IMG/VR virus record: IMGVR_UViG_3300042731_002906 | Location: 1 to 30,068 of that record | Length of the DNA: 30,068 bases | Source: a virus | Strand: one strand, 5' to 3' | Shown: in pieces, positions 748-6,185 of the stretch | How the letters are laid out: each line of letters begins with the position of its first letter | How positions within the stretch are numbered: the first letter of the stretch is position 1 | Notes under the pieces: generated by a model | What the model saw: the letters and a program-made list of their open reading frames with translations, nothing else | Databases searched by the model: none | Told to the model about the DNA's origin: nothing | Made by a program: the position numbers and the translations under genes

Positions 748-1233
748 ATGGTACACAGAATTTACCTATTGATAATTGTAGCAGGTGTTCTAGGCGTTGT
801 AGGTTGGTTTGGGTATCAATACTATGTTGAGACACAAACAGCTATTAGGCAACTCACAGCCAACAATGCAAAACTAGAAACTGCATTACAAACTACTCAG
901 ACATCATTTGACACTTATCGTGAAAATGTTGAAAGAGAAATCGAAGAATTCAAAGCAGAGCTAGTAAGACAGCAACATCTCAATGACGAGCTTGGTGCTA
1001 ACTTAAAAGCTGTGCAAGAAGCAAACCAAAAGATTGCTGGACTGTTGGCAAATACTGACATTATCAAAAACAGTCTAGCAGATCCTAACCTCAGTGAAAG
1101 TATGATAAATGAACAAGTTGATTTATTCTTTGGCGCTATCGGCTGTGCTACTGGCGGTGAGTGCTTGCTCCCAGATCCCACCCGTGAAGGAGATAGTAAC
1201 AGCACCAGTGGTAGTGGAAACACCGGAGATTGA
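748..1233 (+). CDS. inner-membrane spanin (Rz-like)
   Basis: This 161-residue protein has one N-terminal membrane segment (about residues 4-24) preceded by a short basic end, then a long coiled-coil-like periplasmic region (about 28-108), and a Ser/Gly-rich C-terminus with two Cys (133 and 139). This is the architecture of an i-spanin, type II in the inner membrane. The identification is strengthened by the overlapping lipoprotein gene in the +1 frame (1109-1495), the classic Rz/Rz1 arrangement. Spanin pairs bridge the periplasm and fuse inner and outer membranes in the last step of lysis of Gram-negative hosts. I see no sequence similarity to lambda Rz; the call rests on architecture and context. 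The endolysin lies far away (25901), so lysis genes are dispersed as in many T4-like phages. Confidence 0.8.
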   Translation: MVHRIYLLIIVAGVLGVVGWFGYQYYVETQTAIRQLTANNAKLETALQTTQTSFDTYRENVEREIEEFKAELVRQQHLNDELGANLKAVQEANQKIAGLLANTDIIKNSLADPNLSESMINEQVDLFFGAIGCATGGECLLPDPTREGDSNSTSGSGNTGD

Positions 1234-1495
1234 TGCACCTACTATACGCATTGTTCCGAGACCCGATCCCGTTGAATTAAAAAATGCTGATATTGTAGTT
1301 GTTACAGAAGGCAATCTAGATGATGTGATAGCTCGAATCAAAGGAGAGCAAGGCGAGTTTGTGTTGTATGCTATGACTGCACAAAGTTTTGAAGGGCTTG
1401 CACTAAACTTTGAGCAAATCAAAAAGTTTATCGAAGAGCAAAACGCTGTAATACTTTACTACGAAGAAGCAGTTAAACCTAAAGAAAATGAGTGA
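1109..1495 (+). CDS. outer-membrane lipoprotein spanin (Rz1-like)
   Basis: The 128-residue product starts with a lipoprotein signal peptide: basic MNK, a hydrophobic core and the lipobox VSAC, giving Cys20 as the acylated residue. Ser at +2 fits outer-membrane sorting. The mature part is Pro-rich at first (residues 24-56), as in o-spanins, followed by an alpha/beta region and a helix ending LALNFEQIKKFIEEQNAVI. The gene begins 125 bases inside the i-spanin gene in another frame, and its stop region overlaps the DnaJ start by 8 bases. It is longer than lambda Rz1 and extends well beyond the i-spanin gene, so it is an overlapping rather than fully embedded pair. Confidence 0.8.
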   Translation: MNKLIYSLALSAVLLAVSACSQIPPVKEIVTAPVVVETPEIDAPTIRIVPRPDPVELKNADIVVVTEGNLDDVIARIKGEQGEFVLYAMTAQSFEGLALNFEQIKKFIEEQNAVILYYEEAVKPKENE

Positions 1496-2330
1496 TCCTT
1501 ATAATATTCTCGGCGTTGGTCGTAATAGTACTGACGCCGAGATTAAAAGTGCATATCGTAAATTAGCCAAGCAATATCATCCAGATATTGGGGGAGATCA
1601 ACAACGGTTCGCTGAGATTACAAATGCATATGATCAAATAAAAGACCAAGACAGTCGTCAAAATTTTGACAATGGACCGTCAAATTTCCAACAGTCGCAT
1701 TCTGCAAACAGCTTCAATATGAATTTTGGAGCAGACTTTGATGACGTGTTTAACAGTATGTTTGGAGAACAATTTAGACAACAACGTCCACATCGAACTT
1801 ACAGAGAACAGCAACGAGCCAATATCAATGTAACTGTACACATAGCATTACAAGACGTATTCAACAGTGCAGAAAAGAATATCAATATAACCATGCCCAA
1901 TGGTATGAGCAAACCTGTAAAAATAAAGATACCGCCGGGTGCGCAGTTAGGTGATCGTGTAAGATATCAAGGCATGGCACCAGACGGAAATGATTTGTTA
2001 GTAACATTTGCAATTAAACCAAACACTGCATTTGAAATAGACGGTGATAATCTTATTAAACGTTTGAACATAAGTCTCAAAGAAGCAATGTTAGGAACAG
2101 ATAAAATTATAGAAACTCTTGACAATAGAAGTATTAAGTTACATATTAAAAGTGGCACACAAAGTGGAACTAAATTGAGAATACCAGAAAGCGGATTGCC
2201 AAGACGCAACAAAAACAATGGCGATTTGCTAATAGAAATAAAAGTTAAAATACCAAGTATAGTAGCTGAAGAAAGTTTTGGTAAACCATTTGAACAGGTA
2301 CTTATAGAACAGCTAAGTAACAGTAAGTAA
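1488..2330 (+). CDS. DnaJ-family (class B) co-chaperone
   Basis: Residues 3-65 form a J domain with the HPD tripeptide at 31-33 and the helix II motif AYRKLAKQYH, needed to stimulate Hsp70 ATPase. A Gly/Phe/Asn-rich linker follows (about 66-100), then two beta-sandwich substrate-binding domains of the DnaJ C-terminal type (about 110-270) with KIKIPPGAQLGDRVRYQG and NGDLLIEIKVKIP. The zinc-finger CxxCxGxG repeats are absent, so this is a CbpA-like class B protein of normal length (280 aa). It overlaps the o-spanin gene by 8 bases and precedes the ClpA-like gene by 10. It presumably recruits host DnaK to phage proteins; no DnaK gene is visible here. T4 and lambda are known to depend on chaperones for head assembly or replication, but the client here is unknown. 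Confidence 0.92.
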   Translation: MSDPYNILGVGRNSTDAEIKSAYRKLAKQYHPDIGGDQQRFAEITNAYDQIKDQDSRQNFDNGPSNFQQSHSANSFNMNFGADFDDVFNSMFGEQFRQQRPHRTYREQQRANINVTVHIALQDVFNSAEKNINITMPNGMSKPVKIKIPPGAQLGDRVRYQGMAPDGNDLLVTFAIKPNTAFEIDGDNLIKRLNISLKEAMLGTDKIIETLDNRSIKLHIKSGTQSGTKLRIPESGLPRRNKNNGDLLIEIKVKIPSIVAEESFGKPFEQVLIEQLSNSK

Positions 2331-2340
2331 CGGAAACACA

Positions 2341-4581
2341 ATGAACGACAGAATTGAAAATATTGTAGAAAAAACATTTAGGCTTAGTAAAGACTATAAG
2401 CACCAATATGTACAAATAGAACATTTGTTGGCTGTGATATTGGACAGTGAAGAAGTTGAAGATATATTCTTAGACTTTGGTGTTGAAGCCAAAGAAGTAA
2501 GTCGCAGTATATACGAGTACTTGGAAAAAGAACTTGAAACGCTAGAAGATGAATCAGCTGATCCAAAAAAGACTGTGATGCTGGAGCGAGTGTTTCATAG
2601 AGCATTCACACAAGCATTGTTTAATGGTCGTAACAATTTAGATCCCAGAGATTTGCTGATCAGTATACTCAGTGAAAAAAATACTCCTGCAACATACATG
2701 TTGAGTATGTATGGTATTACCAGAGAAAATGTAGTAAATTATATCAGTGATACTGATGCTAACAATGAGAATGTTAGCACTAAAAATACACCTAGCAAGC
2801 AAGAACGTATACTTAAAAAGTATTGTGATAATTTAAATGAACTAGCTGGTGCTGGTGATGTAGATCCAATAATTGGTAGAGAAGAACAACTGGAACAACT
2901 TGTACAGACTGTTGCACGTAGAAAGAAAAACAATGTAATATTAGTAGGAGAAAGTGGAGTTGGTAAAACAGCTATTGCTGAAGGACTTGCATATCTAATC
3001 AACGAAGGACATGTTCCGGAAATTATTCAAGACAATACAATATACAGTTTGGATATAGGAGCATTGTTAGCAGGCACAAAATTCAGAGGAGATTTCGAAG
3101 AAAGGATCAAAGAAGTTCTAGAAATCCTGGAAAGCAGAGACAAGACAATCCTCTTTATTGATGAAATACACATGATTATGGGTGCTGGCAATGCAGGGCA
3201 AGGCTCAATGGATGTAGCCAATCTATTGAAGCCAAGTTTACAAAAAGGAAAACTACGCTGTATTGGCGCAACAACATATGATGAATACAGAGAACATTTT
3301 GAAAAAGACAAGGCACTGAATAGAAGATTTTACAAAGTAGATGTGCCAGAACCCAGTGTAGAAGATGCTAAACGCATCGTTACAAATAGTATTCCAGCAT
3401 ATGAATTGTATCACGAAATTGCATTTGACAAAGAAGCATTGCACGGTGCTGTAGATCTTACACATCAATACTGGCACAATAGATTCTTACCTGACAAAGC
3501 ATTTGATGTATTGGATGCGGCGGCAGCTAGACAGAGATTGTTGCCACAAGAGGCACGTAAATCAGTGCTTGAATTAGATGATATCAGATATGAAGTTGCC
3601 AAACTTACACGTATTCCTGTGGATCAACTAGTGCTCACCAGAGATAGTGAGTACAAAAAAGAGCAACAAATTGATATCGAAAAAGCAATTACAGCTAAAG
3701 TATTTGGACAAGACGAAGCTGTAGAAAGACTAGCAGACAGCATTTATATTGCCAAAGCTGGTCTTAAAGATCCTAGCAAGCCTGTGGGTTGTTATTTGTT
3801 TACAGGTCCTACAGGTGTTGGTAAAACTGAAACAGCCAAACAGCTCAGTGATATCATGAGTATGGAACTACTGCGTTTTGATATGAGCGAATATCAAGAA
3901 CGACACACAGTTGCTAAACTTATTGGTGCACCACCGGGCTATGTAGGATACAGTGAAGGCGGCACTGGCAGTGGATTGTTAATTAACAAACTAGAAGAAA
4001 ATCCCAACTGTATTCTACTACTAGATGAAATTGAAAAGGCACACCCAGATGTAAGCAATGTGTTGTTGCAACTAATGGACAACGGTATGGTAACATCAAG
4101 TGATGGTAAAACTGTTAGTGCAAGAAACTCTATTGTTATTCTTACATCAAACTTGGGCGCAAGAGATGCTGAAAAACATGGTATCGGGTTTGGTGCAAAT
4201 AGTACCAACGAAGATGCACAGCAAGATGCTGTTAAAAGTTTCTTTGCTCCTGAGTTCAGAAACAGACTGGATGCAGTAGTACAATTTAAGAAATTAAACA
4301 AATCACTGATGCACAATGTAACACGCAAGTTCTTGGATGAACTATATGACATGCTTATGGAACGTGCTATCGAATTACAGTACAATGATCAAGTAATTGA
4401 ATGGCTAACACAAAAAGGATTTAGTGATACAATGGGTGCAAGACCAATGGCAAGAGTTATTAATGAAAAAATTAAAAAACCATTGGCTAAGCAAATATTG
4501 TTTGGTAAAGACATCGACACAATAATTTTGACAATAGAAAACAATGACATCAATATCTCAACAAATACGGTCCAGACCTGA
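2341..4581 (+). CDS. ClpA-like two-module AAA+ unfoldase
   Basis: The 746-residue protein has a Clp N-terminal repeat domain (about 1-140), then two AAA+ modules. Module 1 has Walker A GESGVGKT (203-210), Walker B LFIDE (271-275) and the pore motif GTKFRGDFEER. Module 2 has Walker A GPTGVGKT (489-496), Walker B LLLDE (559-563) and the GYVGY pore loop (533-537). There is no long coiled-coil M domain between the modules, which separates it from ClpB. An IGF tripeptide at 615-617 lies where ClpA and ClpX have their ClpP-binding IGL/IGF loop. Length and motifs are complete. It should unfold substrates with ATP and could feed host ClpP; no phage ClpP is visible here. It follows the DnaJ gene closely, and its end overlaps the next gene by 38 bases. 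Confidence 0.95.
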   Translation: MNDRIENIVEKTFRLSKDYKHQYVQIEHLLAVILDSEEVEDIFLDFGVEAKEVSRSIYEYLEKELETLEDESADPKKTVMLERVFHRAFTQALFNGRNNLDPRDLLISILSEKNTPATYMLSMYGITRENVVNYISDTDANNENVSTKNTPSKQERILKKYCDNLNELAGAGDVDPIIGREEQLEQLVQTVARRKKNNVILVGESGVGKTAIAEGLAYLINEGHVPEIIQDNTIYSLDIGALLAGTKFRGDFEERIKEVLEILESRDKTILFIDEIHMIMGAGNAGQGSMDVANLLKPSLQKGKLRCIGATTYDEYREHFEKDKALNRRFYKVDVPEPSVEDAKRIVTNSIPAYELYHEIAFDKEALHGAVDLTHQYWHNRFLPDKAFDVLDAAAARQRLLPQEARKSVLELDDIRYEVAKLTRIPVDQLVLTRDSEYKKEQQIDIEKAITAKVFGQDEAVERLADSIYIAKAGLKDPSKPVGCYLFTGPTGVGKTETAKQLSDIMSMELLRFDMSEYQERHTVAKLIGAPPGYVGYSEGGTGSGLLINKLEENPNCILLLDEIEKAHPDVSNVLLQLMDNGMVTSSDGKTVSARNSIVILTSNLGARDAEKHGIGFGANSTNEDAQQDAVKSFFAPEFRNRLDAVVQFKKLNKSLMHNVTRKFLDELYDMLMERAIELQYNDQVIEWLTQKGFSDTMGARPMARVINEKIKKPLAKQILFGKDIDTIILTIENNDINISTNTVQT

Positions 4582-5278
4582 CTTTAAACTGAACACCAAA
4601 GTATTTTACAAAAAGCACACTTGGAGAGTTGCATTCTTTCAACCTGAGTGGCGTGAAAAGAATAGAATACAGATTCAAGAAGCATGGTATCGTAATAGAA
4701 AAATCACACAGTATCTAAGTGAAAATGAAAACACACATTGGAAAACAAGAGCCGATAGTTTTTACTTTGTTTATTTGACTAGACCTGACAGGATACCAGA
4801 GCTGTTAGATCAATGGGGAGATAGTGTTGTAGAGATAATAGGCCCTATCAATGAACGACACCAAGACATCATGCTTGCTGATCTACAAGTCGTTACTAGA
4901 AAAAAACTTTGGTACAACAAATACAGATACAAAATCAGCAGTCAACGACACGGTCAAACAGATCAAGAAATATTTGAAGAGATGCAGGAATTTTGTCATG
5001 ACTCATTTGAACCTGGCACGTACAAGTTAAGTGATACATTTAGACGAGCCAGCAAAGAATTTCAAAAACGCATGATGAAAACAATGAAAAAATACAGTTC
5101 ATTAAATGGTTATCCGAATATTCAAAGCTCATTGTTTGGATACAGAACCTTTATGCCTTACACTGCTACAGGCAGTATCTATCTTGAAAATCACGATGAT
5201 GTTGTAACACTGCACATGATGTACAAACAATACATAACTACCAGTCAAAAAGTAATCACCTTCGACGAATTGGAATAA
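4544..5278 (+). CDS. conserved hypothetical protein (244 aa)
   Basis: A 244-residue soluble protein rich in aromatic and basic residues, with no membrane segment. The start lies inside the end of the ClpA-like gene (38-base overlap), and no better in-frame start gives an N-terminus compatible with the frame. The sequence has an N-terminal beta-like part (TKVFYKKHTWRVAF) and a C-terminal part (YLENHDDVVTLHMMYKQYI) resembling unnamed proteins I associate with marine T4-like phages, but I cannot assign a function. A late promoter octamer starts at its stop codon, marking the end of the first unit. Confidence 0.8.
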   Translation: MTSISQQIRSRPDFKLNTKVFYKKHTWRVAFFQPEWREKNRIQIQEAWYRNRKITQYLSENENTHWKTRADSFYFVYLTRPDRIPELLDQWGDSVVEIIGPINERHQDIMLADLQVVTRKKLWYNKYRYKISSQRHGQTDQEIFEEMQEFCHDSFEPGTYKLSDTFRRASKEFQKRMMKTMKKYSSLNGYPNIQSSLFGYRTFMPYTATGSIYLENHDDVVTLHMMYKQYITTSQKVITFDELE

Positions 5279-5301: not shown

Positions 5302-5469
5302 ATGGCAAAATTAAACGAAGATATGGTTATTATCAAAGTAAGTGAACTACTGAAAGATAGTGACGACACACGAAAAATTCTTGACCAAGATATAGTAAAT
5401 ACTATTGAAGCCGCAGTCCAAGAACTAGTTGGACCTGGCAAATTAGTTGAGATTATACAAGAACAATGA
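5302..5469 (+). CDS. small hypothetical protein (55 aa)
   Basis: A 55-residue ORF starting MAKLNEDMVIIKVSELLKDS and ending VEIIQEQ. It is preceded by the purine-rich GAAAGG about 9 bases before ATG and ends in an ATGA overlap with the next gene, which supports it as a true gene. It is acidic and predicted helical, without Cys or membrane segment. Resemblance to small proteins of marine T4-like phages is likely; function unknown. Confidence 0.75.
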   Translation: MAKLNEDMVIIKVSELLKDSDDTRKILDQDIVNTIEAAVQELVGPGKLVEIIQEQ

Positions 5470-5840
5470 GCGAAGAAATTTTATCACACACCACTGAATT
5501 AAGCTATACAGGCGCCAAAGCCAAAGGAGATGGCTATTACGGAAGCGGAGACGGTCTGCACACCGTTGTATTTTACTTACAAGAGTTTTTGGGTAGAATA
5601 CACATGGAAGGTAGTTTAGTTACTGAACCAACTGAATCAGACTGGTTTGCTATTCCAATTGGCAGTGGCACTGATTATAAAGAGTATACCTCACAAACAA
5701 CCGAAACTGAAGCATTTAACTTTACTAACAATGCTGTATGGGTAAGAGCTAGAGTAGATAGAAGCGCACTAGATCCTGCACCCAGCGAATATAGTCAAGC
5801 ACTACATGGAACAGTGGAAAAGGTTTTATTAAACCGCTAA
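5466..5840 (+). CDS. putative virion structural protein (124 aa)
   Basis: The 124-residue product is rich in beta-forming residues and Gly/Thr/Ser. A central stretch (about residues 21-70, with YYGSGDGLHTVVFYLQEFLG) looks like a jelly-roll or carbohydrate-binding-like beta domain of the kind found in small phage structural proteins. It is cotranscribed with the 55-aa gene (ATGA overlap) from the late promoter at 5274. A virion role is inferred from late expression and composition. A host-surface binding role is possible but unproven. Confidence 0.75.
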   Translation: MSEEILSHTTELSYTGAKAKGDGYYGSGDGLHTVVFYLQEFLGRIHMEGSLVTEPTESDWFAIPIGSGTDYKEYTSQTTETEAFNFTNNAVWVRARVDRSALDPAPSEYSQALHGTVEKVLLNR

Positions 5841-5861: not shown

Positions 5862-6185
5862 ATGAAAGCCAGAGAGTTTACAATCAATGTACCGATTAAC
5901 ATCAAGATCAACGGCGACGGAGATCCTGAGATTGATGTAGCAGGCGAACAACCTGAACAAGAAGTGCAGCCTGGTCAAGATGAGCTTGATCCAAATCCAG
6001 TTATGGTACCTCCACTACAACAAAGCATTGAAATGAAAAAAGCAGCTCTTGGCAAAGAGGGTGATGTTATTGATAAAATTACAACGGATCAAGATCAAAG
6101 CGATCCATTAGAAGATATTGATGACGGCAAAAACAAACTAGTGGGAGTAGTGTTCGCTGGAGACGACAGTCATTTAGAGGACTAA
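5862..6185 (+). CDS. acidic small protein with MKAREF N-terminus
   Basis: A 107-residue strongly acidic protein, rich in Asp, Glu, Gln and Pro in the middle (about 18-52), with no membrane segment. Its start, MKAREFTINVPINIKING, resembles the putative capsid-targeting peptides of the genes at 10887-24468, but it lacks the I/L-x-E cleavage-like site. It is preceded by a good AGAGGA ribosome site and a late promoter. An acidic prohead core or internal head protein would fit, by analogy with acidic core proteins of T4-like phages. Function not proven. Confidence 0.75.
   Translation: MKAREFTINVPINIKINGDGDPEIDVAGEQPEQEVQPGQDELDPNPVMVPPLQQSIEMKKAALGKEGDVIDKITTDQDQSDPLEDIDDGKNKLVGVVFAGDDSHLED

Follow-up and report, generated by a model that had tools for sequence, protein, structure and literature searches.

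A phage dnaJ–clpA locus and the probable motor of a phage-owned ClpAP protease

Results and Discussion

Analysis of a 30,068-base virus record from a large tailed phage (the whole of which is referred to here as the window) revealed a gene for a ClpA-type unfoldase directly behind a gene for a class B J-domain protein. We consider that this unfoldase probably drives a ClpAP protease that belongs to the phage and usually operates with a phage ClpS, and that a peptide deformylase belongs to the same gene run in much of the lineage. The lineage would then probably supply a protein-degrading machine itself and not just borrow that of the host. This reading is preferred because each of the nine named phages tested that have this ClpA also encodes ClpP and ClpS, while control jumbo phages lack ClpS. 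The window itself, as a 30-kb fragment, is too short to decide between a phage and a host ClpP.

The unfoldase gene (2341..4581, + strand) encodes 746 residues, with E. coli ClpA as the best PDB match (E 4e-204, query residues 2–735) and a match to phrog_4871 at E 2e-251. PF02861, PF00004, PF17871, PF07724 and PF10431 all score above cut-off, which describes an N domain (approximately 2344..2763, + strand; best stretch of PF02861 at residues 14–57) and two AAA+ modules. Both Walker A motifs (K209/T210 and K495/T496) and both Walker B motifs (D274/E275 and D562/E563) are retained, as are the arginine fingers and the pore loops. The M domain of ClpB and ClpC is absent, the ClpB M region appearing as a 118-column alignment gap, so that the preliminary description of an unfoldase with both Walker A/B pairs and no ClpB M domain is borne out, and a ClpB-like disaggregase is disfavoured. 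The ClpA equivalog model TIGR02639 is still the best model by E-value, but its 864 bits lie below the 993 bits that NCBI requires for equivalog naming, which places the protein on a phage branch next to bacterial ClpA and outside the NCBI equivalogs.

Residues I615-G616-F617 (4183..4191, + strand) occupy the column of the ClpP-docking IGL loop of E. coli ClpA (617–619), in the D2 position. Among 90 phage ClpA sequences with a median pairwise identity of 0.47, isoleucine is found in 83, glycine in all 90 and phenylalanine in 84; the pattern [IVL]-G-[FMVY] is universal, and the variants (VGF, LGF, IGM, IGV, IGY, LGM and VGM) are all hydrophobic. Although 21% of all ClpA columns match the isoleucine position in conservation, the motif exceeds chance because it falls at the structurally correct position and G616 never varies, in contrast to most of its loop neighbours. 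The earlier assignment of these residues to the ClpP-docking type of loop thus holds, and docking of ClpP by the window ClpA is well supported as a prediction from sequence.

The J-domain protein (1488..2330, + strand; 280 aa) is of the DnaJ/CbpA type and matches PF00226 (E 8e-19) and PF01556 (E 3e-31), both above cut-off. It is assigned to class B because it combines a J domain containing HPD (KQYHPD) and a DnaJ_C domain with the lack of a zinc finger; across its family (C3), HPD is found in 71 of 73 members and the zinc finger is absent. The dnaJ stop codon and the clpA ATG are separated by 10 bases, so the two genes are, as first described, complete and adjacent, with exact coordinates and matching domains.

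Both genes belong to a tight run on the + strand, which begins with a virion-protein homolog (57-527; phrog_13138) and a phage-encoded translation initiation factor IF-1 (527-745; phrog_30201; TIGR00008 at 108 bits, cut-off 61), the latter seen 5′ of clpA at 12 of the 81 loci. Next, directly ahead of dnaJ, come two spanin-like (Rz/Rz1) genes that overlap each other (748..1495; phrog_739 and phrog_812, lysis). Behind clpA, and overlapping its end by 38 bases, lies a gene for a 244-aa protein (4544..5278, + strand; family C5), present at this place in 60/81 loci, and then one for a small protein (5466..5840, + strand; family C4) that is conserved 3′ of clpA in 62/81. The genes of the run may be co-transcribed, and the gene context points to late expression; a T4-type late promoter sequence, TATAAATA, does not exceed chance frequency within the window. 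Structure was of no help in assigning a function to the C5 protein, as its AlphaFold2 model is confident (pLDDT 89) yet has no PDB match at E≤0.001 and only phage proteins as relatives in BFVD. The C4 protein is likely the counterpart of gp185 of Pseudomonas phage PA5oct, which is annotated as structural by MS, judging from position and size alone, without alignment. Further downstream, genes for a RyR-domain protein (PF02026; 8639-9196) and a UvdE-like UV endonuclease (PF03851; 9255-10358) are found among structural-region genes. Several downstream proteins, one of 2509 aa, share a short MK/MR-x-x-E-F/L-like N-terminus (genes starting at 5862, 10887, 11832, 13078, 15715, 16183 and 23712), which we take to resemble the capsid-targeting signal of T4 internal proteins.

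The gene order was compared across 80 related viral loci and the window, 81 in total. A dnaJ homolog of family C3 lies upstream of clpA in 73 of these, and five of the other eight (L018, L031, L049, L055 and L059) are cut by the contig end too near clpA for the preceding gene to be read. A gene for peptide deformylase directly precedes clpA in 51 loci, normally between dnaJ and clpA; three members of this family were tested and all reach PF01327, and the EGC and HExxH-type motifs are kept in 51/51. The deposited annotation of Sinorhizobium phage Phosso reads dnaJ-def-clpA, PA5oct and Agrobacterium phage Atu_ph07 have dnaJ-clpA, and in RaK2-type phages and the Vibrio phage clpA stands between structural genes without dnaJ. 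The deformylase is absent from the dnaJ–clpA position in the subclade of the window (L001–L006 and L013). Its loss there is the simpler interpretation, because the cassette occurs both in Phosso, L016 and L043 and in the main clade of the tree.

Bacterial clpA is arranged differently: in 80 bacterial-labelled loci clpS precedes clpA 74 times and dnaJ is near clpA only three times (L173, L174 and L176), so the dnaJ–clpA pairing is specific to phages. An origin of the pair in a bacterial operon is ruled out by this arrangement, since the three exceptions fall inside the phage clade. These three contigs, binned in Pelagibacter, Rickettsiales and Neomarinimicrobiota MAGs, carry a phage-type dnaJ–clpA. 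Conversely, the record labelled 'Acinetobacter phage MD-2021a' (L091, CAKLQF020000008) resembles a bacterial chromosome, with clpS-clpA beside argC, rpiA and aroF.

In a 65-sequence tree built by a quick method without bootstrap, a branch with SH-aLRT 100 separates the phage ClpA proteins, as a single clade, from those of bacteria; three phage-like contigs from bacterial MAGs lie on the phage side. This clade, together with synteny across 80 viral contigs, rules out host contamination or misassembly. The pN/pS of clpA (0.26–0.28) reflects clear purifying selection and that of dnaJ (0.45–0.58) weaker purifying selection, both figures being rough because synonymous sites are near saturation.

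ClpP and ClpS partners

A genome search for a phage ClpP or ClpS, proposed in the preliminary description, gave a divided answer: neither gene lies within the window, but both were found in 9/9 named phages with this ClpA (eight records titled complete genome; that of the Vibrio phage titled partial, though 349 kb). Each of the two was also detected in 8 of 22 viral contigs, and ClpP exceeded the cut-off in 3 of 40 further, mostly short contigs. ClpS was found in none of eight hand-picked control jumbo phages, and strong ClpP matches among these were limited to phage G and Lak-A1, both of which have another Clp unfoldase. For ClpS, 9/9 against 0/8 corresponds to p ~4e-5 (exact test, 1/24310), although the nine include close relatives and have the real weight of about five lineages. 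Among relatives of the window, ClpP is encoded by the next-nearest ones, L006, L010 and L015, on the same strand as clpA in the first two (~18 kb and ~8 kb upstream, respectively), and a relative at 72% (L002/G002) has ClpS on its 108-kb contig.

All 22 phage ClpP sequences examined keep Ser-His-Asp, and those nearest E. coli ClpP, including those of L006 and L010, retain most of the hydrophobic pocket. In the wider lineage of the window, ClpS keeps its N-degron pocket (N34, D35, T38 and H66) as well as E79 and K84. On the ClpA side, we take E23, E28 and T81 of E. coli ClpA to be putative ClpS contacts, a literature search having given no confirmation of the ClpS–ClpA contact residues. The N domain of the window ClpA keeps two of them, as E27 and T78, and has Q22 in place of E23. 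RaK2-type ClpS has lost K84 and usually H66, and E23, E28 and T81 of the cognate ClpA are changed as well; in SCTP-2, ClpS E79 is replaced by K and ClpA T81 by E. This covariation of ClpS and ClpA residues in RaK2-type phages and SCTP-2 is suggestive only. Against the protease reading stand the erosion of the ClpS pocket in RaK2-type phages, the absence of both partner genes from the window and that of ClpP from the partial contigs of its five closest relatives.

Among 31 genomes or records, leucyl/phenylalanyl transferase (Aat) was found in none, so these phages carry no gene for the known N-degron-making transferase, and methionine aminopeptidase in only one. N-degrons would consequently have to be made by the host transferase or arise through endoproteolytic cuts. 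A DnaK gene, full or split, occurs in only three of the 31, which makes host DnaK the usual partner of the J protein. An intact DnaK gene occurs together with ClpS on only two contigs (G013, 288526-291254; G020, 114741-117476), and there DnaK lies within ~0.7 kb of clpS.

A mechanism is proposed where ClpA would thread substrates through its pore into a ClpP ring to which the IGF loop docks, with ClpS selecting some of the substrates. The neighbouring J protein probably works by bringing in DnaK, which in most of these phages would be that of the host; together they probably keep clients foldable or pass them to ClpA. The leading candidate substrates are proteins bearing N-degrons, or else virion proteins that were processed or left unassembled. 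Tentatively, and with less conviction than for the protease itself, this jumbo-phage lineage may possess its own N-terminal protein-fate pathway, with deformylase, J protein and ClpA encoded in the cassette and ClpS and ClpP elsewhere. If so, the pathway would set which phage or host proteins are degraded in infection, and it could escape control by host adaptors.

The preliminary description suggested that the phage may redirect host proteolysis; on this reading, a phage without ClpP would dock its ClpA to host ClpP and steer it. ClpP is indeed absent from the partial contigs (47–108 kb) of the five closest relatives of the window and was not seen in the large contigs G018, G021 and G009 (180–217 kb), and the IGF motif would suit a host ClpP. 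However, the ClpP-less contigs are probably fragments, and ClpP is present both in the next-nearest relatives and in all of the named phages. We therefore regard this explanation as unlikely; the relatives' own ClpP and ClpS weaken the redirection of host proteolysis, whereas the ClpP docking that it assumed is supported by sequence. A ClpP-independent remodeller or disaggregase, serving virion or tail-fibre assembly with DnaJ and DnaK, would agree with the neighbourhood of the locus, which lies among spanin and virion genes, with the proteins annotated as structural that flank clpA in PA5oct, and with the adjoining dnaJ. ClpB, however, requires its M domain for coupling to DnaK, and the unfoldase has no such domain; the ClpP loop, moreover, is kept in every relative, which makes this role distinctly improbable. 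The other suggestion of the preliminary description, that the pair may serve head assembly, draws on neighbourhood evidence only, from the position of the locus between genes for virion and lysis proteins. Apart from homology to bacterial ClpA, nothing speaks for a passenger gene pair of host origin with no fixed phage role, and the single deep phage clade, the purifying selection and the conserved cassette contradict it so directly that we give it hardly any credence.

A phage-owned ClpAP protease with ClpS is thus the best reading. Because the unfoldase, its docking loop, ClpP and ClpS occur together across a deep phage clade, what had been separate homologs can now be tested as one machine whose parts are defined, and the link to deformylase raises N-terminal processing as a testable question.

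Comparison with known systems

ClpA, DnaJ, ClpP and ClpS have all been listed for Atu_ph07, whose authors found ClpA conserved in most RaK2-like phages (PMC6102473). ClpP, ClpS and ClpA were discussed in a jumbo-phage survey (PMC7824862), and ClpA is among the core genes of moraphages, some of which have DnaJ (PMC12619734). Neither Clp nor DnaJ is treated in the papers on the PA5oct relatives MIJ3 and Callisto or in a 2026 jumbo-phage review. Although several annotations include phage Clp genes, the literature searched yielded no biochemistry or tested function for them; nor, in a search that covered few subscription journals, was there a description of a dnaJ-def-clpA cassette or of a phage deformylase with ClpA or ClpS. 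The conserved cassette may therefore be a new detail beside the four proteins already reported for Atu_ph07.

The window ClpA shares with E. coli ClpA its domain order, the IGL/IGF loop and the lack of an M domain, at 44% identity, but the bacterial operon is clpS-clpA and not dnaJ-clpA. The gene order of PA5oct is conserved, with a virion gene pair, dnaJ (gp187), clpA (gp186), a structural protein and a tail protein, and PA5oct encodes its own ClpP and ClpS; it differs in lacking the intervening spanins and the C5 gene, with 42% identity. Its gp186 (L084) is named 'porphyrin biosynthesis' in RefSeq, probably a transferred phrog_249 label. Phosso, an isolated phage, carries the full dnaJ-def-clpA cassette as well as ClpP and ClpS, and differs from the window (46% ClpA identity) in the deformylase between dnaJ and clpA. 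Atu_ph07 (45% ClpA identity), like the window, has dnaJ (gp293) immediately upstream of clpA (gp292) with no deformylase between them, and it encodes both ClpP (gp676) and a ClpS (gp708) that has lost H66 (genes reported in PMC6102473).
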